A stretch of 64,000 nt of DNA from NCBI GenBank assembly GCA_016209105.1, contig JACQWR010000004.1, forward strand, positions 62,001-126,000, written 5' to 3'. Each line of letters opens with the position of its first letter. Within the stretch, counting starts at the first letter, position 1. The notes under the pieces are model-generated. The model had not been told where the DNA came from. It saw nothing but the letters and a program-made list of their open reading frames with translations, and ran no database searches. The DNA comes from Deltaproteobacteria bacterium (GTDB taxonomy: Bacteria; Desulfobacterota; Syntrophia; Syntrophales; JACQWR01). Positions 42,346 to 53,243 of the stretch are shown here, in pieces. Position numbers and translations under genes: made by a program.

Positions 42346-42930
42346 TCAGAACCGTACGGGCTTGCAGATAACTTCCCAGACTTTCAGGTCAAAGCAATAG
42401 GCGCTGTTCGCCGGTTGCAGCAGCAGGGCAGTATCAGCGCCCCTGCCGGACCCGGCGATGGAGATGACATCTTCGTCTGTTCTTACCAGACCCGCATCGG
42501 CGGCCATCAGCGCCAACTCTATCGCCACCTTGGTGCCTTGCCCGAATACCCGCAGGCTGTAGGCGATAATTTCGTCCACCTGGTAGGTGCCAAGTTTGTG
42601 TCTCACCCCGCGGCCTACTCCGCCGAAGGCGTGGGGGCCAGTAAGCACTTTTATCCCCAGGGATTCCAGTTCTTCCCGTTTCGTTTCGCTCAGTTCCTGG
42701 AAGTTTGGTTTCACGTATCCCGTCACGTGGGATACGGCAATAAGGTGGATTTTATGGTCAAGAACCTTTCGAGCTTCCAGCGCCGTTCTCCCGGTACTGC
42801 TGGCCACCAGAACCTTGCGGACGTCAAGTTCTTTCGCACGTCGTGCGACCGCCTCCAGGACATTGTCGGTGTTTTTAGCGCCCGGTTTTGCCAGATAGCG
42901 GCACGCCACGTCAGTGTATGGTGAAGTCAT
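42346..42930 (-). CDS. Pyruvate kinase C-terminal-like domain protein
   Basis: 194 residues from ATG 42930 (GGGGAGG site). It matches the stand-alone pyruvate kinase alpha/beta (PK_C) domain: KVLVASSTGRTALEARKVL, LIAVSHVTGYVKPNFQELSETKREELESLG and the C-terminal SIAGSGRGADTALLL. No catalytic barrel is present, so it cannot be a pyruvate kinase itself. Such proteins are common in anaerobes but uncharacterised. It may be at the end of the sulfur operon (113 bp after cysN) or separate. Confidence 0.8.
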   Translation of the reverse strand: MTSPYTDVACRYLAKPGAKNTDNVLEAVARRAKELDVRKVLVASSTGRTALEARKVLDHKIHLIAVSHVTGYVKPNFQELSETKREELESLGIKVLTGPHAFGGVGRGVRHKLGTYQVDEIIAYSLRVFGQGTKVAIELALMAADAGLVRTDEDVISIAGSGRGADTALLLQPANSAYCFDLKVWEVICKPVRF

Positions 42931-43042
42931 GGATGCCTCCCCCGATGGATTATTCATCGGCGTGATTCTAACATTGATGTAGTGCTTCTGTGAAGCAATT
43001 TTCCCGTATACCCGGGAGAAGGAGTTTTAACAGGAGGGGAGG

Positions 43043-44842
43043 CTATATGCTGTAATCCGGAATGATAGCCTCTTTCCGGAGTAGGTCGAAGATCGCGATG
43101 ACCGTCGCCGGCACGTCGGCGTCTTCCCCGATGTGCATATCGGGGCTGAAGCTGCTGAAGGTGTTGGTTCCCACGTTCAGCACCAGGATTTCATGGGGGG
43201 CGTTGAGCATTTTCAGTGTTTCCAGGTCGTAGTCGTCGGCTTCCCCGACCGCCGTGATGAGTATCTGTCCCGAATCGGTGAGGATCCTGGCCAGCTCTCC
43301 CAGGCGCCGGATGCGCTCTTCCTTCATTTCCTGGTCGTCCGTGACGTCGGCATCGAGGCCGCTGTCCATATTTTCGATTCCCAGGTAGTAGGTGACGTAA
43401 TTGTCTTCGAAGAGCTTTTTTTCGAGCATTTTGGCAATCTCCCGCTTTTTTGCGTCCGCGCCGCCGGTGAACAGGACGAACTTAGCCTTGTGGTGGTAGC
43501 GGCTCTGCCGGTGGCCGGCCGAAACGTGACCCTTTTCCCAGGAAATCTCGCGGCGCCGGATATGATCCCGCAGGATTGAATCGGTATCGGGCAGGCTCTC
43601 CATGATGATGCCCCCGCCGGCGATCTCGTAATGGTCCACGATGACGAAACGACCCGTTGCTTCGATTTCGGAGAGGGTGTCGAAGGCCAAGGGCTTGGTT
43701 GCTTCCAGAATGCATTCGGCCACGTCGTGGCGGTCAAGCTGCAATTTTCCCGGTGAACGCGAGAGGTCGGTCGCGTCCGTTACGGTCACGATTTCCACCA
43801 GCTTCACGAAGGCGCGGGAGGTCGCGAGCTTCAATTTGTACTTTCTGTTTTGTATCATGGGCGCCCTGCCCATCCAGAAGATGTTAGCCTTGAACCGCGA
43901 GGAGACGTGGGGCGGCGGTTCGTTTGCCCGGCACATGATTTCTCCCGGCCGCACGTATATCTCTTCCGTAAGGGTGAACCCGGCGGTGGAACCAGCTCCC
44001 GCCTCGTCCCGGACGGGCGTATGGAATCCCTCGATGTTTTTGATCTGCGATTTTTTCCGGGAGGGCAGGAAGAGTACTTTGTCGCCGGTCTTAACGGAGC
44101 CCGTTTCGACGGTGCCCGCGAAAATCCTCCGGTCGTCGTTGTCGGCGGTGAACTTGTAGATGTCCTGCAGGGGAAAGCGGAAAGGCTTCTGTTCTTTTCC
44201 GGCGCTGTTCTTCAGGGCATCAAGGTGTTCCAGGACGCTCATGCCCGTATACCAGGGGGTGTTGGGGCTTCTGGTTGCGATGTTGTCGCCGTGCCGCGCG
44301 GAGACAGGCACGAAACCGACCGGCCTGATGCCCAGATTGCCGAGAAAATCTGCGCACTGCATCCGGATGTCCTCGAAAAGGGCGCCGTCGAAATTGAGGA
44401 GATCCATCTTGTTCACGAGGACCACGAACTGGGTAATGTCCAGCAGGGAGGCAAGGTATCCATGCCGGCGCGAGTTTTCAGCGATGCCCTCCTGGGCATC
44501 TATAACGAGGAGCGCCGCTTCCGCGCGGGCGGCGCCGGTCACCATGTTCTTGAGAAATTCGACGTGGCCCGGCGCGTCAATGATGATATAGTCCCGGAGC
44601 TTCGTCTTGAAGAAGCAGCGGGCCGTATCTATCGTGATGCCCTGCGCCTGCTCGTCCTTGAGCGCATCGAGCAGAAAGGCGTACTCGAAGGGACGGGCAT
44701 TCTTGGCGCAGGTCGCCTGCACCTGCTCCAGCTTTCCCTCGGGCAGAGAATGGGTGTCTGCCAGCAGCCTGCCGATTGCCGTGCTCTTGCCGTGGTCCAC
44801 GTGTCCCAGGACGACGATGTTCATTTGTTCTTGCTGTGCCAT
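43043..44842 (-). CDS. cysN: Sulfate adenylyltransferase subunit 1 with degenerate APS-kinase domain
   Basis: 599 residues. The N-terminal GTPase ([30 protein letters not shown]) regulates and drives sulfate activation to APS by CysD; beta-barrel domains follow. The last ~170 residues align with APS kinase (CysC), yet the P-loop reads [13 protein letters not shown] instead of G-x-S-G-x-G-K-S/T, and the APS-binding arginine and asparagine motifs are not recognisable. PAPS synthesis is therefore unlikely, which fits the adjacent APS-type CysH. Its start codon overlaps the cysD stop. Confidence 0.94.
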
Positions 44843-45723
44843 TACATATAACCTTCCCTGCGGAGCGTTTCCAAGCCCCCGCCGTCTTCCTTATCCTGGT
44901 CTCTCCCCGACCGCTCGGCGATGTTGGCCAGTTTACCGCTGCCGAGCTCTACGATTATTTCCGCCACCGTCCTCGCCTCGGAGGCAATGGGTTTTGTGCA
45001 GGGCAGGCAGCCGAGCGATCGGTAACGCTGTCCAGCTCCCTGGTTGAAGTACAGGGAGACCACGGGGATTTCCTCCCGTTCTATGTATTCCCAGATGTTG
45101 AGTTCCGTCCAGTCCAGGAGGGGATGGATGCGCACGTGGGTGCCGGGGGCAAAATCGGTTTTGAACTGGTTCCACAACTCCGGAGGCTGATCGCCCACGT
45201 CCCATTCGCTCTCCTTGTCCCGGGCGGAGAAATACCGTTCCTTGGACCTGCTTCCCTCTTCGTCGGCCCGGACGCCGACGATGACGCCTGTGTAGGGTTC
45301 CTTTTCCTTGTCCACCACGTACTTTTTCAGGTTGTGGTCCATCCGGTACCGCGGCCATTCGCCGGAGAGGGTACGCTTCAAGGCTTCGCTCTTTAAATTC
45401 CGGCAGCAGGTCAGGCGGTCCACCGTGCCGTCGGGGAATGTTTGCTTGTTCCGGAGCGCTTCCACGTTTTCTCCGTAGATCATGTTTACGTTCCACTCTA
45501 ATGCCAGGCGGTCCCGGTAGGCGATCATTTCCGGTATCTTGTAGTGGGTATCAATATGCACGAGCGGGAAGGGCACGTGGCCGAAAAACGCCTTGCGTGC
45601 CAGCCACAGGAGCACCGTGCTGTCCTTGCCTATTGACCAGAGCATGCACAGGTTCTTGAATTCCCGGTATGCCTCCCGGAGGATGTAAACGCTCTTTGCT
45701 TCCAGTCTATCGAGATGATCCAT
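44842..45723 (-). CDS. cysD: Sulfate adenylyltransferase subunit 2
   Basis: The adenylating subunit of ATP sulfurylase, 293 residues from ATG 45723. The open frame reaches 45927 inside cysH, but the extra residues are unlike the family. The PP-loop [51 protein letters not shown] and [10 protein letters not shown] are diagnostic. It lies 8 bp after cysH and overlaps cysN by one base. Confidence 0.96.
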
Positions 45724-45731
45724 GGCCTGTC

Positions 45732-46454
45732 CTATCCTTTTCCCGGAATTGCGGTATGCCGGTGCAAACCGCATTCTTTGTGTTCCGGGTCTTCCCACCA
45801 CCAGCGGCCGGCGCGGATGTCCTGGTCCGGGGCCGTGGCCCGCGTACAGGGGGCGCAGCCGATGCTTCTGAAGCCCCGGTCGTACAGGGCGTTGTAAGGC
45901 ACGTCGTGGCGCCGGATGTACTGCCACACGTCATCTTCGCTCCAGTCGAACAGGGGGGAAATCTTGTATATGCCGTGCGCGGCGTCCCACTCGATAACCT
46001 CGGTTTCCTTGCGCGTAAGTCCCTGGTCCCGCCGCAGGCCGCAGATCCATGCGTCGGCGGTTGCGAGTATTTTCTTGAGCGGCCGGATCTTGCGTATCTC
46101 GCAGCAGCGTTCCCGTTTTTTCCGGGACGCATACATGGCATTGGGCCCCTCTGCGGACACCAGCGTGGCGACCTCTCCGCTGTCCGGCACGCAAGTTTCA
46201 TAGCGGATCTGGTATTTATCCATGGAGCGCTGCATCACGTCGTAGGTTTCCTGGAACAGTCTTCCCGTGTCGAGGGTAAATATGCGGGCGCTGTGACTGC
46301 TCTTGCACAGCATGTCCGTGAGTACCTGGTCTTCCGCGCTGAAGCTCGATGCCAGGATCACCCTCTCGGCGCCGAATTTCCGGAGAGACCACGCCAGGGT
46401 CTCCTCGGCGTTCTTGCCCGCAAGTTCCTTTTTGTATTGTTCCAGTTTTTCCAT
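45732..46454 (-). CDS. cysH: Adenylylsulfate (APS) reductase
   Basis: Reduces APS to sulfite with thioredoxin. 240 residues. In addition to the C-terminal catalytic ECGLH (Cys228), it carries Cys117-Cys118 in RCCEIRKI and Cys200/Cys203 in IGCAPC, the four ligands of the [4Fe-4S] cluster that mark APS-specific rather than PAPS-specific reductases. PP-loop-like [11 protein letters not shown] is at residues 35-45. This makes APS kinase unnecessary, matching the decayed domain in CysN. Confidence 0.95.
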
Positions 46455-46478
46455 GGTTCCTTACCCTCTCTCGGCATC

Positions 46479-46709
46479 CTATATTTGATAGTCCTGCGAC
46501 GGAGGAGCATACCGCCCCAGGGAAATTCTGTTCCAGAGACGTTCATGCAGGTAGAACAGGGAGATTTTTGTAAACAGCTCCACGGCGCCGATGGAAACGG
46601 CCATTTTTATTTGTCCCGTTATCAGAAAGGAAATGACGATCGTGTCGAGGGTTCCCAGTATCCGCCACGACGTCGCCTTGATGAGACTGCGGTAATGTTT
46701 TTCCGCCAC
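46479..46709 (-). CDS. DUF2061 small membrane protein
   Basis: 76 residues with two hydrophobic segments: KATSWRILGTLDTIVISFLITG and MAVSIGAVELFTKISLFYLHERLW. This is the DUF2061 pattern, frequently found in sulfate-assimilation operons. It may aid sulfate uptake or anchor enzymes, but no function is established. It starts 2 bp after the sulfite reductase stop. Confidence 0.87.
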   Translation of the reverse strand: MAEKHYRSLIKATSWRILGTLDTIVISFLITGQIKMAVSIGAVELFTKISLFYLHERLWNRISLGRYAPPSQDYQI

Positions 46710-46711
46710 AG

Positions 46712-49075
46712 TTAGTGCCTCTCTATAAGGACAGACCAGTAGTCGCCTGTCTTGGTCTGTTCCATGACCCGGTGTCCCTCTTCGGCGACAGAGCGGGGGA
46801 CATTGACGATGGGTTCTCCATCATCGAGGAATATCCGGAGCCGTTGCCCGGGTTGCATCGCCGAAAGTTCCATCTTTGTTTTGACGAAATTCATGGGGCA
46901 GGCGACGCCGCGCAGATCTTTAAACGTCTGCTCCTGTGCGGTTCCGGTCGCTGCCGCTGCGGGTTTGCTTTTTTCGCCCGGTGAAGGGGTTTCCGCCGCT
47001 TTTTTTTCCGCCGGGAACTTGAGAGAATCATCCATGCTTTCGTATAAATCCTCTACGGTCCGGGTGAGGGCGAAAATATCTTCCTTCATCGTTGCCAGCT
47101 GTGCCCGGTTTTCATTCTTTGCCAGCTCCAGCAGGGGAAGGAAACGCCGGTCCACCAGGCCGCACTCCACGAAGTAGTGCACAAAGTTATCAAACACCTC
47201 ACGATCGGAAGATGCCTCAACGCCCCTCGTAATAAGCAGCATCCGCGCCGCGGCAAGCGCAATCCGATACAGGACATCCGCGCTGGCTGACGGGTCCGAG
47301 AGTTTCTCCAGTTCTTTCTGCCCTTTTTTGATCGTTTTCATATCCAGCTCGATCAGGTCGAAGAGACCGGCGGAGCACTCTCCCACCCCCCTACCGACGA
47401 GCGAGAATATCTCTTCCGCCCCCCAGTCGAAGTAGTAGTTTTTGTCCTCCTCAAAGCCGGGTATATCGACGTATTTGGCGCAGAGCCGTTTGATGTCCTT
47501 GGTTCCTTCTTTCTCCATGTACGCAGCAAAATCCGGGTATTGGTCTTTTTTCCTAATGTAAAGCCGGAAAAACCCGGCCACAAAGTCCGGTAGATCGCGG
47601 GCGCTTACGTCGCCTATCCTTGCAGCAAGGCGCGGGGCATCGCTGCCCACGCGCGCGCCGGCCACGACGGCGTAGGAAGGGTACATCCGCTGTCCCTTGC
47701 GTTCCACCTGACCGAAGAAGCCGAGATCGGCCGTCATGTGCGCCCCGCACGTGTTGGGGCAGCCCGAAATATTGAGCCGCAGCCGGCCGACGGCGTCCAT
47801 GTCCAGTTTCGAGCTCATCAGCTTCCGGTTGACGGCGGTAAGCGCGCCGCGCGGCAGGCAGATGCCGAGCTTGCAGGTGCCGGCGCCGGTGCAGGCGATG
47901 CAGTTGCCGTAGAATTTGGGAGCGGAGGAAAGGTCCGACGCATCCTTCAGGACGCTGTAGATGTGCCCCAGGTATGCTTCCGGGATATTCCGGATGCTCA
48001 AATTCTGCTCCAGGGTGCAGCGGAGCACGTTCTCGCCAAACGTCTCCAGCGTCTCGGCCAGCGCAACCGCATGACGGCAGGAGATATTGCCCAGCGTGAC
48101 AGGCGCCAGAATGGAAAAGAGACCTGCCTGCTTCTGCGAAGAAACGAACCGCTCCTTCCAGAGGGAAAATCCGGAAGCGGGTTCCCCGGCGGCAAGACCG
48201 GGGCGGGAAGCAGCCTCGTTTCTTATCTCACCTATCGCGGGCAGCGGGGCGCCCTCCAGCGCCCGGTATTCCTCTTCATAGAGTTCGCGGAATTTCGCTT
48301 CACCCAGCTTGTTCCAGAGGAAGCGAAGCCGGGCGGCGTGTTTGTTCTTCCGGTTGCCGTGGCGGTCAAATACCTTTTTTACGGCCTCGGCGACACGGTA
48401 CGCCTGGGCGGCGGGAATAAACTCGTGGAGCACGTGCCCCGTCTGCGGCTTTGTCCCCATGCCTCCGGCGACATACACCCTGAACCCTTCTTCTGTGCCC
48501 GCTTTTGCCGCGATGAAGCCCAGGTCGTTGAAGACTGCGTGGGCATTGTCCTCGTCGGAGTTGGAAAAGGCGATCTTGTATTTTCTCGGCAGCGTCCAGG
48601 AGTCCGGCTTCGCGATCAGCATGCTTGTGAGGCTCACGGCATAGGGGGTCACGTCGAAGGGTTCGCCCGGGGCGATGCCCGCGTCCCACGAGGCCATAAT
48701 GTTGCGCACCGTATTGCCCCCTCCGCCCCTCGTGGCCAGATCTGCCTTGCGCAGCTCCCGAAGGATCGCCGGGACATTTTCCAGGATGACGTCGTGGATC
48801 TGCAATTCCTGCCTCGTGGTGATGTGGATCGTATCTGCGCCGTATTGTTCGGAAAGAAGCGCCACCGCCTTCAACTGCCGGGGGGTGACCCCGCCGCCGG
48901 CGCACCTGATGCGGACCATATAGGTGTCGGCGGCGCGCTGTTCGTAGACCCCGAAGGGAACGCGGTGCGCCCTAAATTTTGTCGCCTCCAGGGCGCCCTG
49001 ACGATAGCTTTGTATCAATCGTTCCAGCTCGTCGATCTCAGCGTCGTACGAGGGCGGTATTTCGTAGAAATTCAT
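46712..49075 (-). CDS. Siroheme sulfite reductase fused to TusA-like sulfur carrier
   Basis: 787 residues in three parts. Residues about 1-560 form a NirA/CysI-type hemoprotein: substrate residues in FRAHRVPFGVYEQR and ITTRQELQIHDV, then cluster/siroheme cysteines in CTGAGTCKLGIC and SGCPNTCG. Residues about 575-690 form a helical domain (FDLIELDMKTIKKGQKEL, VFDNFVHYFVECGLVD), HEPN-like. The last ~75 residues are a TusA domain with the sulfur-carrying Cys in DLRGVACPMNFVKTK. The linker between is Ala/Pro/Lys-rich. It reduces sulfite to sulfide and may load sulfur onto its own carrier. It overlaps the JAMM gene by 4 bp. Confidence 0.92.
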   Translation of the reverse strand: MNFYEIPPSYDAEIDELERLIQSYRQGALEATKFRAHRVPFGVYEQRAADTYMVRIRCAGGGVTPRQLKAVALLSEQYGADTIHITTRQELQIHDVILENVPAILRELRKADLATRGGGGNTVRNIMASWDAGIAPGEPFDVTPYAVSLTSMLIAKPDSWTLPRKYKIAFSNSDEDNAHAVFNDLGFIAAKAGTEEGFRVYVAGGMGTKPQTGHVLHEFIPAAQAYRVAEAVKKVFDRHGNRKNKHAARLRFLWNKLGEAKFRELYEEEYRALEGAPLPAIGEIRNEAASRPGLAAGEPASGFSLWKERFVSSQKQAGLFSILAPVTLGNISCRHAVALAETLETFGENVLRCTLEQNLSIRNIPEAYLGHIYSVLKDASDLSSAPKFYGNCIACTGAGTCKLGICLPRGALTAVNRKLMSSKLDMDAVGRLRLNISGCPNTCGAHMTADLGFFGQVERKGQRMYPSYAVVAGARVGSDAPRLAARIGDVSARDLPDFVAGFFRLYIRKKDQYPDFAAYMEKEGTKDIKRLCAKYVDIPGFEEDKNYYFDWGAEEIFSLVGRGVGECSAGLFDLIELDMKTIKKGQKELEKLSDPSASADVLYRIALAAARMLLITRGVEASSDREVFDNFVHYFVECGLVDRRFLPLLELAKNENRAQLATMKEDIFALTRTVEDLYESMDDSLKFPAEKKAAETPSPGEKSKPAAAATGTAQEQTFKDLRGVACPMNFVKTKMELSAMQPGQRLRIFLDDGEPIVNVPRSVAEEGHRVMEQTKTGDYWSVLIERH

Positions 49076-49527
49076 GTTCTATTGCTCCTTTGCTGCTTGT
49101 TCTCCTGCGGCGTTCTGCCGACTGGAAATTGCGCTACGATTTCCATATCTTCCTGTTCCACCTGAGCGGCCCTGATCCGGAAAGACCGGACCACGTCGTT
49201 TCCCTCTTTCAGGGAGACAATGACGTAGCTGATATCGGGGTCATAAGCCAGCCTGATGTCTTCCTCGGACGGCCGCGCCTCGGAAGCGGGGTGGCTGTGA
49301 TAGATGGCGCGCAGTCGCAGCCCTTGGGAGCGCATCTTGCGGACGGCGGCGAATTGCTCCTTCGGCGCGAGGGAAAAATGTTCCGGCGAGGCGTCCACAT
49401 TGGTGAGCGGGTAATGCCGGACAACGATGCCCTCTTTCTCGGCCAGATAGCCGCAGGCTTCGAGTGGCGCCTCCGAGTGGGCGTGGGCGATAATGGCGTC
49501 AATGGTCTCCGGGGATATATATAACAT
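49072..49527 (-). CDS. JAMM/MPN (Mec-type) metalloprotease
   Basis: 151 residues from ATG 49527; an in-frame ATG at 49542, adjacent to the upstream stop, is possible but lacks a ribosome-binding site. The JAMM zinc motif is HSHPASEARPSEED, with the upstream Glu in EACGYL. Mec+ family proteases trim residues beyond the Gly-Gly of sulfur carrier proteins or release cysteine/homocysteine from them. The carrier gene at 51575 encodes just such a C-terminal extension. Confidence 0.92.
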   Translation of the reverse strand: MLYISPETIDAIIAHAHSEAPLEACGYLAEKEGIVVRHYPLTNVDASPEHFSLAPKEQFAAVRKMRSQGLRLRAIYHSHPASEARPSEEDIRLAYDPDISYVIVSLKEGNDVVRSFRIRAAQVEQEDMEIVAQFPVGRTPQENKQQRSNRT

Positions 49528-49542
49528 TTCTTTTTTCCTCAT

Positions 49543-50349
49543 TTATTTCAGGTCGCACCCGGCCTGTTCTTCGTCAACGAGTTCCCTGATGGAGGGATTG
49601 TCGCCGCAGACGGCGCATTTCCCGTTACGCCGGAGCGCGATCGTTCTGAAAACCATGGACTTGGTGTCGAAGGTAAGCAAGCTATCCGCGAGCAAGGTTC
49701 CCGTTTTGGTTATGAATTTTAGACACTCCGTCGCCTGGATCGTCCCCAGGATGCCCGCGACCGCGCCCAGGACGCCCGCCTGCGAGCAGGTAGGGACCCG
49801 TCCCGGCGGCGGTGGGGAGGGGAATACGCAACGGTAGCAGGCGGACCGGCTGGGCAGGATCGTCATTGTCTGGCCGTTGAAGCGCAGGATGCCGCCGTGT
49901 GAAAAGGGCTTCCCCGCAAGGATGCAGGCATCGTTGATGAGAAACTTGGTGGCAAAATTGTCCGTCCCGTCAATAATGAAGTCATAATCGGCAATCATCG
50001 GCCCGATGTTGGCGGCGCGTACAAACTCATGGTACATTTTTACGGTAACATCCGGATTTATTTCCCGCATCTTTTCCGCCGCCGATTCCACCTTGGGGCG
50101 GTTTACGTCTTTGGTAAAGTGTATAACCTGGCGCTGCAGGTTTGACAGTTCGACACAGTCCGCATCGGCAATGCCAATGGTGCCTGCGCCTGCGGCCGCC
50201 AGATAGAGCGCCGCCGGCGATCCCAGGCCGCCCGCCCCGATGATCAGTACCCGTGCCTCCCGTATCCGGGCCTGCCCTTCGATGCCGATGTCCTTCAAGA
50301 TAATGTGCCTGCTGTACCGTTCCAGTTCTTCGTCGGTAAAAGAGATCAT
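49543..50349 (-). CDS. E1-like sulfur carrier adenylyltransferase (MoeB/ThiF/HesA type)
   Basis: 268 residues. It has ATP-binding GAGGLGSPAALYLAAAG, the conserved Asp and Arg in DADCVELSNLQRQ, the zinc Cys pairs CYRC and CAVC, and the conserved Cys in PTCSQAGVLG. It should adenylate the C-terminal glycine of the ThiS-like carrier in this operon so that it can receive sulfur. The gene overlaps the MetY-like gene by 4 bp. MoeB or ThiF function is the alternative, but no molybdopterin or thiamine genes adjoin. Confidence 0.92.
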   Translation of the reverse strand: MISFTDEELERYSRHIILKDIGIEGQARIREARVLIIGAGGLGSPAALYLAAAGAGTIGIADADCVELSNLQRQVIHFTKDVNRPKVESAAEKMREINPDVTVKMYHEFVRAANIGPMIADYDFIIDGTDNFATKFLINDACILAGKPFSHGGILRFNGQTMTILPSRSACYRCVFPSPPPPGRVPTCSQAGVLGAVAGILGTIQATECLKFITKTGTLLADSLLTFDTKSMVFRTIALRRNGKCAVCGDNPSIRELVDEEQAGCDLK

Positions 50350-51578
50350 AGTTTCTTTAGTCCCTCCCGAAGATCGGCGATGATGTCTTCGGCATCCTCT
50401 ATGCCTACGGCAAGCCGGAGCATGGAAGCGGGAACACCCAGCCGTTTCTTTTCCTCTTCCGAGTATTCGCAGAATATCGTCGAGGCGGGATGCAGGATAA
50501 GGGTTTTGTTATCGTTGATGTTCGTTGCCCGCCGGACGAGGGACAGGCTGTCCATGAATCTGAAGCACGTATCTTTGTCGGCCAGATCGAAGGTTAAAAT
50601 ACTGCCGAACCGGTTGCCGAATTGTCGTTTCGCCGTTTCATGACCGGGGGAAGCCGCAAGACCCGGATAGTTGACGGACCGCACCTCGGTGCACGTTTCC
50701 AGGAACAGGGCGATGGCGAGCGCATTCGTGCAACTTTTCTCGATGCGCAAACTGAGCGTCTCCAGGCCGAGGCTTTGCATGTAGGCGTTGTGGGGCGACA
50801 GGCAGGAGCCGAAGTTTCTGTATGCCTCGCGCCGCAGGAGCGCGATAAGGGCAAATGGCCCGTACTGGGCGGAGGCCTTTTTTAATCTCGGGCATGTGCT
50901 CCAGTCGTAGTTGCCGTTATCAACGATCAATCCGCCCACCGTTGTTGCCCCGCCCGATATATGCTTGGTGCTTGAGACGACCTCGACCGCCACGCCGAAA
51001 TCTTTCGATTTAAAAAGATACGGCGTGGTCAGGGTGCCGTCCAGGATCACGGGGATGCCCGCGGCCGCGGCAGTGCTTGATACCTCCGCGATATCGGCGA
51101 CCTCCAACTGCGGGTTCGTGATTGTCTCCAGAAAAACGGCCCTCGTTTTTTCCGTGATGCTTTGTTTCAAGCTCTTCGGCTTTGTCATGTCTGCGTACCG
51201 CACCTCCATGCCCCAGGGTTTCAGGGTATGTTCGAAGAGCGAATAGGTGTTTCCGAACAGGCGCCGGGAAGAGATAATGTTTGACCCCGTTTCGGCGAGC
51301 ACAAGGATTACATTGGAGATGGCGGCCATGCCGGAGGACACGGCTACCACCCCGGTCGCATCGGTCAGGAGGCGGATGCGCTGTTCGAAATCCTCCACCG
51401 TGGGGTTGGAGATGCGGGTGTAGGAATGGCCGAGCGCTTTTCCTTCGAAGGCGAGCTCAAGGGCATGGGATGTTTCAAATTCAAAGGCGACGTTCTCGTA
51501 GATCGGCGTCCTCAGGGCGCCGTGCACGTCTTTTTTCAGGGCGCTGCCGTGAATCGCATTTGTGGAAAAACCTCTCAT
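50346..51578 (-). CDS. metY: O-acetylhomoserine sulfhydrylase-like PLP enzyme
   Basis: 410 residues of the Cys/Met-metabolism PLP family. The PLP lysine is in VVSSTKHISGGATTVGG, with SGMAAISNVILVL and YSRI-type segment HSYTRISNPTVEDFE. It is closest in feel to O-acetylhomoserine sulfhydrylase, making homocysteine from an activated homoserine and sulfide or a protein thiocarboxylate. The operon context (carrier, E1-like, JAMM protease) matches the thiocarboxylate-dependent pathway described in Wolinella. It overlaps the carrier gene by 4 bp. Cystathionine gamma-lyase or -synthase activity cannot be ruled out from sequence alone. Confidence 0.87.
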   Translation of the reverse strand: MRGFSTNAIHGSALKKDVHGALRTPIYENVAFEFETSHALELAFEGKALGHSYTRISNPTVEDFEQRIRLLTDATGVVAVSSGMAAISNVILVLAETGSNIISSRRLFGNTYSLFEHTLKPWGMEVRYADMTKPKSLKQSITEKTRAVFLETITNPQLEVADIAEVSSTAAAAGIPVILDGTLTTPYLFKSKDFGVAVEVVSSTKHISGGATTVGGLIVDNGNYDWSTCPRLKKASAQYGPFALIALLRREAYRNFGSCLSPHNAYMQSLGLETLSLRIEKSCTNALAIALFLETCTEVRSVNYPGLAASPGHETAKRQFGNRFGSILTFDLADKDTCFRFMDSLSLVRRATNINDNKTLILHPASTIFCEYSEEEKKRLGVPASMLRLAVGIEDAEDIIADLREGLKKL

Positions 51579-51790
51579 CGCAGCGTTCCCCCTCCCATGA
51601 AATAGACAAAATCCACCGCGTCCTCGTTCGTGATCATTTTCGAGGGATATTCTTTTCTGTCCACGAAAGAGCCGTTGATTTGCACGGAAACCATTTCCGG
51701 CATCTCCACCTTGTTCAGCTTGAGCAATTCGGAAATGGTAATATGGGCGCCCACTACGGTCTTTTTTTCTCCGTTGACGGTGATGATCAT
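51575..51790 (-). CDS. ThiS/MoaD-like sulfur carrier with masked C terminus
   Basis: 71 residues with the ubiquitin-like beta-grasp fold: MIITVNGEKKTV, ISELLKLNKVEMPEMVSVQINGSFV, then DAVDFVYFMGGGTLR. Active carriers end in Gly-Gly; here Gly66-Gly67-Gly68 is followed by Thr-Leu-Arg. A protease must remove the tail before adenylation, and the JAMM gene in the same operon is the obvious candidate. This mirrors HcyS/CysO-type systems. No thiamine genes are nearby, so a role in homocysteine or cysteine synthesis is favoured over ThiS. Confidence 0.88.
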   Translation of the reverse strand: MIITVNGEKKTVVGAHITISELLKLNKVEMPEMVSVQINGSFVDRKEYPSKMITNEDAVDFVYFMGGGTLR

Positions 51791-51825
51791 GCTCTCTTCT
51801 CCTGTTTTTAACGGTGTGGTGGTAA

Positions 51826-52752
51826 CTATTCTTTCAGAAGTTTTGTTACGCTGGTATATCGTTCCCCGCTGTCGGGAAAGATGATGACGATGTTTTTATC
51901 CCTGAGTTCGTGGGCGGCCAGATATTTTTGCGTAGCGCACACGGCGGCCCCGGATGACAACCCGGCCAGGATGCCCTCTTCCCGGATCAGCTTTCGCGTC
52001 CAGAGCATCGTTTCTTCATCGGAGACGGATACGACTTCGTCAATCAAGTCGGTATTGAGAATCCGGGGGATAAATCCCGCGCCGATGCCTTGGATCATGT
52101 GGGGGCCGCCCTTCCCGCCGCTCAAGACGGCGGAAGAAGTGGGTTCCACGGCCACGATGATTATTGCCGGATTCCGCCGCTTCAGTTTGCCGGCGATACC
52201 GGTTATGGTTCCGCCGGTACCCACACCCGCGACCAGCATGTCCACGGCGCCGTCCATATCGGCGAGGATTTCTTCCGCCGTCGTCTCTTCGTGCGCACGG
52301 GTGTTTGCGGGATTTTCGAATTGCCGCACCAGGAAGGAATCGGGGATTTCCCGGTGGATGGCTTCGGCGCGGTCAATGGCGCCTTTCATTCCCAGCTGGG
52401 CGGGAGTAAGCTCCACGCGGGTGCCGAACAGCTTCAGCAGGTTTTGGCGTTCCAGGGTCATGGAATTGGGCATCACGATGATAAGTTTGTAACGACGGGC
52501 GGCGGCAATGAAAGCCAGCGCAATGCCCGTGTTTCCGCTCGTTCCTTCGATGATCGTGGCGCCCGGCTTCAAGAGTCCCTTTTCTTCTGCATCGTTAATC
52601 ATGCCGACTGCCGGCCGGTCTTTTATGGAGGAGCAGGGGTTAAACTGCTCCAGCTTTGCAACGATTAGATTTTCGTTCCCGTTTATCACCTTGTTGAGCC
52701 TGACGAGCGGTGTATGCCCGATAAGATGGGTAATGTCTTCTGCAATGCGCAC
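51826..52752 (-). CDS. cysK: Cysteine synthase
   Basis: PLP enzyme that makes cysteine from O-acetylserine and sulfide (or a thiocarboxylated carrier). 308 residues. The PLP lysine is in NPCSSIKDRPAVGMI, the substrate loop is EGTSGNTGIALAF, and the PLP phosphate site is VGTGGTITGIAGKLK. The CysK/CysM choice is not decided. The C-terminal LSSGAAVCA and FPDSGERY are typical. It is the second gene of the operon, 13 bp after the Rrf2 regulator. Confidence 0.94.
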   Translation of the reverse strand: MRIAEDITHLIGHTPLVRLNKVINGNENLIVAKLEQFNPCSSIKDRPAVGMINDAEEKGLLKPGATIIEGTSGNTGIALAFIAAARRYKLIIVMPNSMTLERQNLLKLFGTRVELTPAQLGMKGAIDRAEAIHREIPDSFLVRQFENPANTRAHEETTAEEILADMDGAVDMLVAGVGTGGTITGIAGKLKRRNPAIIIVAVEPTSSAVLSGGKGGPHMIQGIGAGFIPRILNTDLIDEVVSVSDEETMLWTRKLIREEGILAGLSSGAAVCATQKYLAAHELRDKNIVIIFPDSGERYTSVTKLLKE

Positions 52753-52765
52753 GGTCGTATCTCCC

Positions 52766-53176
52766 TTAAATATGGAACATCATGCCTTCATCATAGTTTT
52801 TCTGCCTGATCATCAGCTCGGCGAGGGAAAGGGAGAAGACCTTTTTCACCTCTCCTTCCGCCAGCCGGTAGAGATCTTCCAGGGCATCGAGGGAACCGCT
52901 TCCGGCATGCTCGCCTCCGCCTTCCAAGATATCGAGTATCTGGAGGAACGTGATATTTGCCGGGTCTTCTGCCAGCCCGTACCCGCCTTTGTTGCCCCTG
53001 ACCGCCCTCACAATGCCTGCTTTGGTGAGCAGGTTCAGCAGTTGTTCGAGATAATTCGGCGGGATCCCGCGGCGTTCAGCGATAACCTTTGATTGCAGTA
53101 ACTTGCCCCCGTAATTGTTGGCGAGTTCGAGCAGCGCCGCTGTGCCGTATCGTACCTTGCTTGATATAATCAGCAT
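52766..53176 (-). CDS. Rrf2-family regulator, CymR-like
   Basis: 136 residues. A winged helix-turn-helix opens with SSKVRYGTAALLELANNYGG, then KVIAERRGIPPNYLEQLLNLLTKAGIVRAVRGNKGGYGLA. The cysteines that bind an Fe-S cluster in IscR and RsrR are absent, as in CymR, the cysteine-metabolism repressor that works with CysK. It heads the sulfur operon, directly behind the promoter and inverted repeat at 53183-53243, so it probably autoregulates the whole operon, perhaps through the adjacent CysK. Confidence 0.9.
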   Translation of the reverse strand: MLIISSKVRYGTAALLELANNYGGKLLQSKVIAERRGIPPNYLEQLLNLLTKAGIVRAVRGNKGGYGLAEDPANITFLQILDILEGGGEHAGSGSLDALEDLYRLAEGEVKKVFSLSLAELMIRQKNYDEGMMFHI

Positions 53177-53182
53177 TTGTTC

Positions 53183-53243
53183 ACCAAGTATGTTGATCTA
53201 TTTACTTGGTAATGAGTATAGCGATGTCCGGGCATAAAGTCAA
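53183..53243 (-). promoter_or_regulatory. Promoter and inverted-repeat operator of the sulfur operon
   Basis: On the minus strand, TTGACT (53243-53238), a 17-bp spacer and TATACT (53220-53215) form a near-consensus promoter. Just downstream, ACCAAGTA (53210-53203) and TACTTGGT (53190-53183) form a perfect 8-bp inverted repeat with a 12-bp spacer, overlapping the expected transcription start and ending 6 bp before the Rrf2 ATG. This is well placed for repression by the Rrf2 protein. Confidence 0.85.

Follow-up and report, generated by a model that had tools for sequence, protein, structure and literature searches.

The window, i.e. the whole stretch of 64,000 nucleotides that was analysed, carries a set of 11 genes on the minus strand, from position 53176 to 43043, in the order rrf2, cysK, carrier, metY, E1, JAMM, sulfite reductase-TusA, DUF2061, cysH, cysD and cysN. 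The initial annotation had described 11 tightly spaced or overlapping minus-strand genes, and this was confirmed: all of them were present in the order claimed, and the successive intergenic gaps from rrf2 to cysN were 13, 35, -4, -4, 0, -4, 2, 24, 8 and -1 nt (range -4 to +35 nt). The genes and the candidate sites upstream of them are the following:

53215..53243, minus strand: candidate sigma-70-like promoter, TTGACT-17-TATACT (consensus scan, 10/12 matches; a consensus match only)
53183..53210, no strand assigned: candidate Rrf2 operator, perfect 8+8 inverted repeat ACCAAGTA-N12-TACTTGGT, just before rrf2
52766..53176, minus strand: rrf2, CymR-like Rrf2 regulator with no cysteine and the C-terminus MMFHI (PF02082, 2.3e-26)
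51826..52752, minus strand: cysK, O-acetylserine sulfhydrylase (TIGR01139, 419 bits, cut-off 351)
51575..51790, minus strand: carrier (HcyS type), ThiS-like beta-grasp protein of 71 aa ending in FVYFMGGG-TLR (TIGR01683/PF02597; solved match 2k5p/3cwi)
50346..51578, minus strand: metY, carrier-type O-acetylhomoserine sulfhydrylase (solved match 3ri6, clade, loop deletion)
49543..50349, minus strand: E1-like adenylyltransferase (HcyF type) without rhodanese domain (PF00899, 2.5e-81; ThiF/Uba4-like)
49072..49542, minus strand: JAMM/JAB metalloprotease (HcyD type) (PF14464, 1.7e-25)
46712..49075, minus strand: siroheme sulfite reductase of the NirA/SirA type, joined by a helical linker to a C-terminal TusA domain (PF01077, PF03460, PF01206)
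46479..46709, minus strand: DUF2061 small predicted membrane protein (PF09834, 2.4e-21)
45732..46454, minus strand: cysH, assimilatory APS reductase (TIGR02055 over cut-off; CC...CxxC motif)
44842..45723, minus strand: cysD, sulfate adenylyltransferase subunit 2 (PRK05253, 350 bits)
43043..44842, minus strand: cysN, GTPase subunit of sulfate adenylyltransferase; its C-terminal domain is APS-kinase-like and has lost the P-loop (PF00009, PF01583)

Judged from the spacing, the 11 genes would be transcribed as a single unit. Only one terminator-like site was found on the operon strand, weak and located at 48189 inside the sulfite reductase gene. When the 40-nt stretch with the inverted repeat was shuffled 5000 times, a perfect 8+8 repeat arose in 14 cases; a conserved Rrf2 operator was looked for upstream of distant rrf2 genes and was not found there. 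A gene for a protein of 203 aa (42346-42957), also on the minus strand, follows cysN at a distance of 85 nt and is possibly co-transcribed.

The MetY protein had as its best solved match the Wolinella enzyme 3ri6 (449.5 bits, 51% identity), followed by a structure with 321.9 bits. A tree of 44 rows placed the carrier-linked MetY proteins, including 3ri6, in a clade apart from conventional MetY, with supports of 99/95 and 100/99, and the second MetY of the same genome, encoded on contig C22, fell with the conventional enzymes; the nearest relatives of the operon MetY were from Calditrichota and Desulfobacterales. The segment from DW to SPHNA had 35-36 residues in the carrier-type MetY proteins in which both motifs were readable and 47-50 in conventional MetY; it had 36 in the operon MetY, as in 3ri6, corresponding to a shared loop deletion of 11-14 residues. 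The operon MetY is thus an orthologue of the carrier-using MetY of Wolinella, and MetY of this type is linked to carrier, E1 and JAMM in almost all loci. In W. succinogenes, the enzyme takes its sulfur from a protein thiocarboxylate (PMC6271081) and, as far as its sequence can tell, the operon MetY is of this same type.

The carrier ends in Gly-Gly-Gly masked by a presumably removable tail, Thr-Leu-Arg, and a tail after the three glycines was present in 36 of 37 related carriers, that of the Campylobacteraceae being a single Ala (GGGA). In Wolinella, too, the carrier has a C-terminal Ala when first made, and HcyD removes it. The three Gly codons are GGAGGGGGA, lying 8 nt upstream of the ATG of metY, where they can also serve as the metY ribosome-binding site; the next gene started at 8 nt or less from the Gly codons in 25/35 related carriers.

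Encoded together with the carrier is the E1-like adenylating enzyme, in which Cys 171/174/245/248 (zinc pattern), Cys188 and Cys265 were invariant in 35 homologues. Cys265 is an invariant C-terminal cysteine (EQxxCDL), additional to the ThiF-like Cys188. The active site of the JAMM protease was intact, with E28, H82, H84, S92 and D95 invariant in 30 homologues. Targeted searches of the genome detected one Prok-JAB protein over the cut-off and two E1 proteins. The thiamine ThiS of this genome (L028:7466-7687, contig C28) ends in RFMGGG-AVAWRTH; the ThiS proteins of relatives that were read end in GGG without such a tail, and the one of G051, which is the only other genome with both JAMM and a ThiS match, ends in GGGG. 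As the genome has only one JAMM and one E1 that is not MoeB-like, the operon enzymes may also serve the tailed ThiS. The missing thiF beside thiS was considered as a sign of takeover by the operon E1 and was dropped, since relatives likewise have no thiF nearby.

The AF2 model of the sulfite reductase-TusA protein (pLDDT 80) gave Foldseek matches to 1zj8 and, at its end, to TusA. The only cysteines invariant in 14 homologues were 395, 401, 439 and 443, which are the cluster ligands, Cys567 in the helical linker and Cys726 in the TusA domain. The linker itself (47006-47470, between sulfite reductase and TusA) carries the invariant motif GECSAG, which includes Cys567; it had no Pfam match, and its best Foldseek match was a HEPN protein, which was weak (E 0.067).

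TusA was encoded directly after JAMM in 23 of the 23 readable loci, i.e. those in which the sequence continued for about 1.5 kb or more beyond JAMM, a count conditional on the loci having been collected through MetY patterns; it was fused to sulfite reductase in 14, standalone in 8 and fused to JAMM in 1 (L038). No sulfite reductase was found there in 6 of the 23 loci, all of them labelled Desulfobulbaceae or Deltaproteobacteria. In L038 (4155-4811), JAMM and TusA share one reading frame of 218 residues. Iyer et al. had already remarked that SirA (TusA) is a constant member of such neighbourhoods and that rhodanese is missing from their E1 (PMC1779556). Since TusA follows JAMM in all readable loci, even in the six without sulfite reductase, it is likely to be the direct sulfur donor, and this constant partner argues for delivery of protein-bound sulfur to the carrier. 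Transfer of sulfur from TusA to the carrier, with TusA in the role of rhodanese, thus appears somewhat more probable than its opposite; cysteine invariance alone is no proof of transfer. Against this relay counts the Wolinella scheme of Krishnamoorthy and Begley from 2011, which reportedly used bisulfide from sulfite reductase and had no need of TusA. The constancy of the TusA partner makes the question of the carrier's sulfur supply a testable one.

Concerning sulfate activation, the CC...CxxC pattern of APS reductases was present in CysH and in all 17 homologues read. The start of cysD was reassigned to the homologous ATG at 45723, instead of 45927, the long ORF beginning inside cysH. DUF2061 adjoins cysH also in L090 and L054, and the P-loop of the kinase-like tail of CysN was lost in L043, L089 and L090 as well as in the window.

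CysK had 4lma as its closest solved match and conserved the TSGNTG and GIGAGF motifs; the CysM models remained below cut-off. It was 67% identical to the CysK of the Elusimicrobia operon L032, the two forming a diverged pair in the tree (100/100). A cysK gene next to or near carrier or metY was found only in this operon, L032, L067, L058 and, less closely, L074, and it was missing from most related operons. The solved matches of Rrf2 were the BadM/Rrf2 protein 4cic and then CymR, 2y75. The operon Rrf2 may be of the CymR type: it has none of the IscR-type cluster cysteines, ends in Ile and has cysK adjoining; CymR is among the partners of CysK that have an isoleucine motif (PMC12895370). A C-terminal [YF]xI was found in 20/20 related Rrf2 proteins besides the operon Rrf2 (FHI), and this end may be a wider family trait, as it also occurs on Rrf2 proteins encoded outside these operons. 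With the CymR precedent and a cysteine-free Rrf2 ending in FHI, the presence of rrf2 and cysK at the front would be explained most simply by a CymR-CysK-like sensor, a pairing to which we give an even chance.

The host genome has a size of 2.7 Mb and is 92% complete, and the statements made at genome level rest on targeted searches. The genes dsrA, dsrB, dsrK and dsrM were detected, and L023 (C12:20001-36000) carries dsrA, dsrB, a small DsrD-like ORF, dsrM and dsrK. Neither aprA (best 27.9 bits against a cut-off of 641.75) nor sat was detected in the 92% of the genome available. The operon is therefore the only sulfate-activating route detected, a claim limited by the missing 8% of the genome, and the host may respire sulfite or use sulfonates instead of respiring sulfate. 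Contig C22 carries a conventional metX-cysK-metY set (MetX identified by sequence inspection) and cysE. This set could make homocysteine from free sulfide, so the operon may be conditional. The alternative homocysteine route through DUF39/HcyBio was looked for in the genome and was absent.

Gene order, orthology, catalytic motifs and the constant linkage to TusA were observed directly, and from them the reactions in this organism can be proposed. Most probably, the operon encodes a carrier-dependent homocysteine route (HcyS/HcyF/HcyD/MetY) fed by assimilatory sulfate reduction. CysDN would make APS, which CysH would convert to sulfite without a PAPS step, given that CysN has a degenerate kinase domain; the sulfite would next be reduced by the siroheme sulfite reductase. 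The fused TusA domain (Cys726) would take the sulfur and pass it on to the carrier, probably via Cys188 and Cys265 of E1. JAMM would first cut the Thr-Leu-Arg tail off the carrier, exposing Gly-Gly-Gly; E1 would adenylate the trimmed end, and replacement of AMP by sulfur would yield the thiocarboxylate. MetY would then add the carrier thiocarboxylate to O-acetylhomoserine, supplied by the MetX encoded on C22, and JAMM would release homocysteine. Rrf2 and CysK would probably act as the sensor pair, CysK making cysteine from free sulfide as well. The initial annotation had every step encoded in the operon, which held from sulfate to sulfide; the homoserine and serine acetyltransferases are encoded elsewhere (C22), and the operon includes no sulfate transporter.

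It had also been suggested that sulfide could be channelled on proteins and never be set free. In an extended form of the homocysteine route, the sulfur would never be free between sulfite reductase and homocysteine (siroheme, TusA Cys726, E1 Cys, carrier, MetY); E1 and JAMM of the operon would in addition prepare the tailed ThiS for thiamine. The operon would then be the shared carrier-loading station of the cell; we regard this extension as doubtful.

Somewhat less credible is that the carrier feeds CysK, besides or instead of MetY, as CysO feeds CysM in Mycobacterium tuberculosis, so that cysteine would also be made from the thiocarboxylate. The position of cysK next to or near carrier or metY, shared by this operon with L032, L067, L074 and L058, and the diverged pair formed by the CysK proteins of the window and L032 would agree with it, but most carrier operons have no cysK, CysK resembles O-acetylserine sulfhydrylases most in its sequence and stays below the CysM cut-offs, and a CymR-CysK-like sensor pair explains the proximity of rrf2 equally well. 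The carrier-fed cysteine synthesis of the initial annotation did not find support, CysK being ordinary by family and motifs and missing from most related operons. Cysteine synthesis of the CysM/CysO type as the main role was not favoured either, in view of the family, structure match and tree position of CysK.

Very unlikely, finally, is an ordinary operon for assimilatory sulfate reduction whose MetY and CysK work with free sulfide, carrier, E1 and JAMM being only co-regulated, for another sulfur transfer or a protein modification. The ordinary family and motifs of CysK would fit such an operon, and the tailed ThiS offers another possible use for E1 and JAMM; however, MetY is linked to these three genes in nearly every locus and belongs to the clade of the Wolinella enzyme, away from the conventional MetY of the genome, beside which a second conventional MetY would be redundant. 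Chance or misannotation was ruled out by the Pfam/NCBIfam matches, with E-values from 1e-9 (carrier) to 1e-125, and by the recurrence of the operon gene sets in other phyla.

The operon preferred here, with its carrier-dependent homocysteine synthesis, is another and unusually complete copy of a pathway known from Wolinella, and it belongs to a class already described: Iyer, Burroughs and Aravind included it in their catalogue of 2006 (row 4e) and listed such operons for Wolinella and Geobacter (PMC1779556). Common to the operon and row 4e are a ThiS-like protein, JAB, SirA/TusA and an E1 lacking rhodanese, in the company of sulfate-assimilation genes; cysteine synthase, Rrf2 and DUF2061 are not listed in that row. 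The likeness to the HcyS/HcyD/HcyF route of Wolinella, already proposed in the initial annotation, was borne out at the level of orthology by the match, clade and loop deletion of MetY (51% identity), to which the tailed carrier, E1 without rhodanese and JAMM can be added, as well as sulfite reductase-TusA and cysHDN, present in related Campylobacteraceae clusters too. The two differ in gene order, in rrf2 and cysK at the front, in the carrier tail (TLR, not A), in the dead kinase domain of CysN and in that the host of the window also has a conventional MetY and dsrAB. The claim that the operon extends the Wolinella route could be kept only for the rrf2-cysK front end, as the Campylobacteraceae clusters (L060, L062 and L065) already join cysH-cysD-cysN-carrier-E1-JAMM-sulfite reductase-TusA with metY; DUF2061 is a further addition.

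The CysO/CysM/Mec+/MoeZ system of M. tuberculosis likewise synthesizes an amino acid with carrier, E1 and JAMM protease, but the carrier-linked sulfhydrylase is here MetY, E1 has no rhodanese domain, and in place of a CysM-type sulfhydrylase linked to the carrier there is a CysK over its equivalog cut-off. With CymR-CysK of Bacillus subtilis, the operon shares an Rrf2 ending in Ile beside cysK and has CymR among the best solved matches of this Rrf2; the phylum is different.

Default annotations, which name MetY a plain sulfhydrylase, the carrier ThiS and E1 MoeB, hide this pathway from metabolic predictions. The Wolinella-type homocysteine route is widespread yet patchy, with carrier-type loci in at least eight phyla and carrier-type MetY in 2 of 99 sampled relatives of the window's own order. 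Nearly the whole operon was found in an unclassified bacterium (L043: rrf2-carrier-metY-E1-JAMM-sulfite reductase-TusA-cysH-cysD-cysN). In G051, one of the two relatives, DUF2061-cysHDN is directly preceded by fragments of a metY and a sulfite reductase-TusA gene of the window type (L090:4086-4786) and followed by a second set, metY-carrier-E1-JAMM-sulfite reductase-TusA. The fragments are apparently a decayed copy beside its replacement, and together with the second set they indicate that these modules get replaced and moved.
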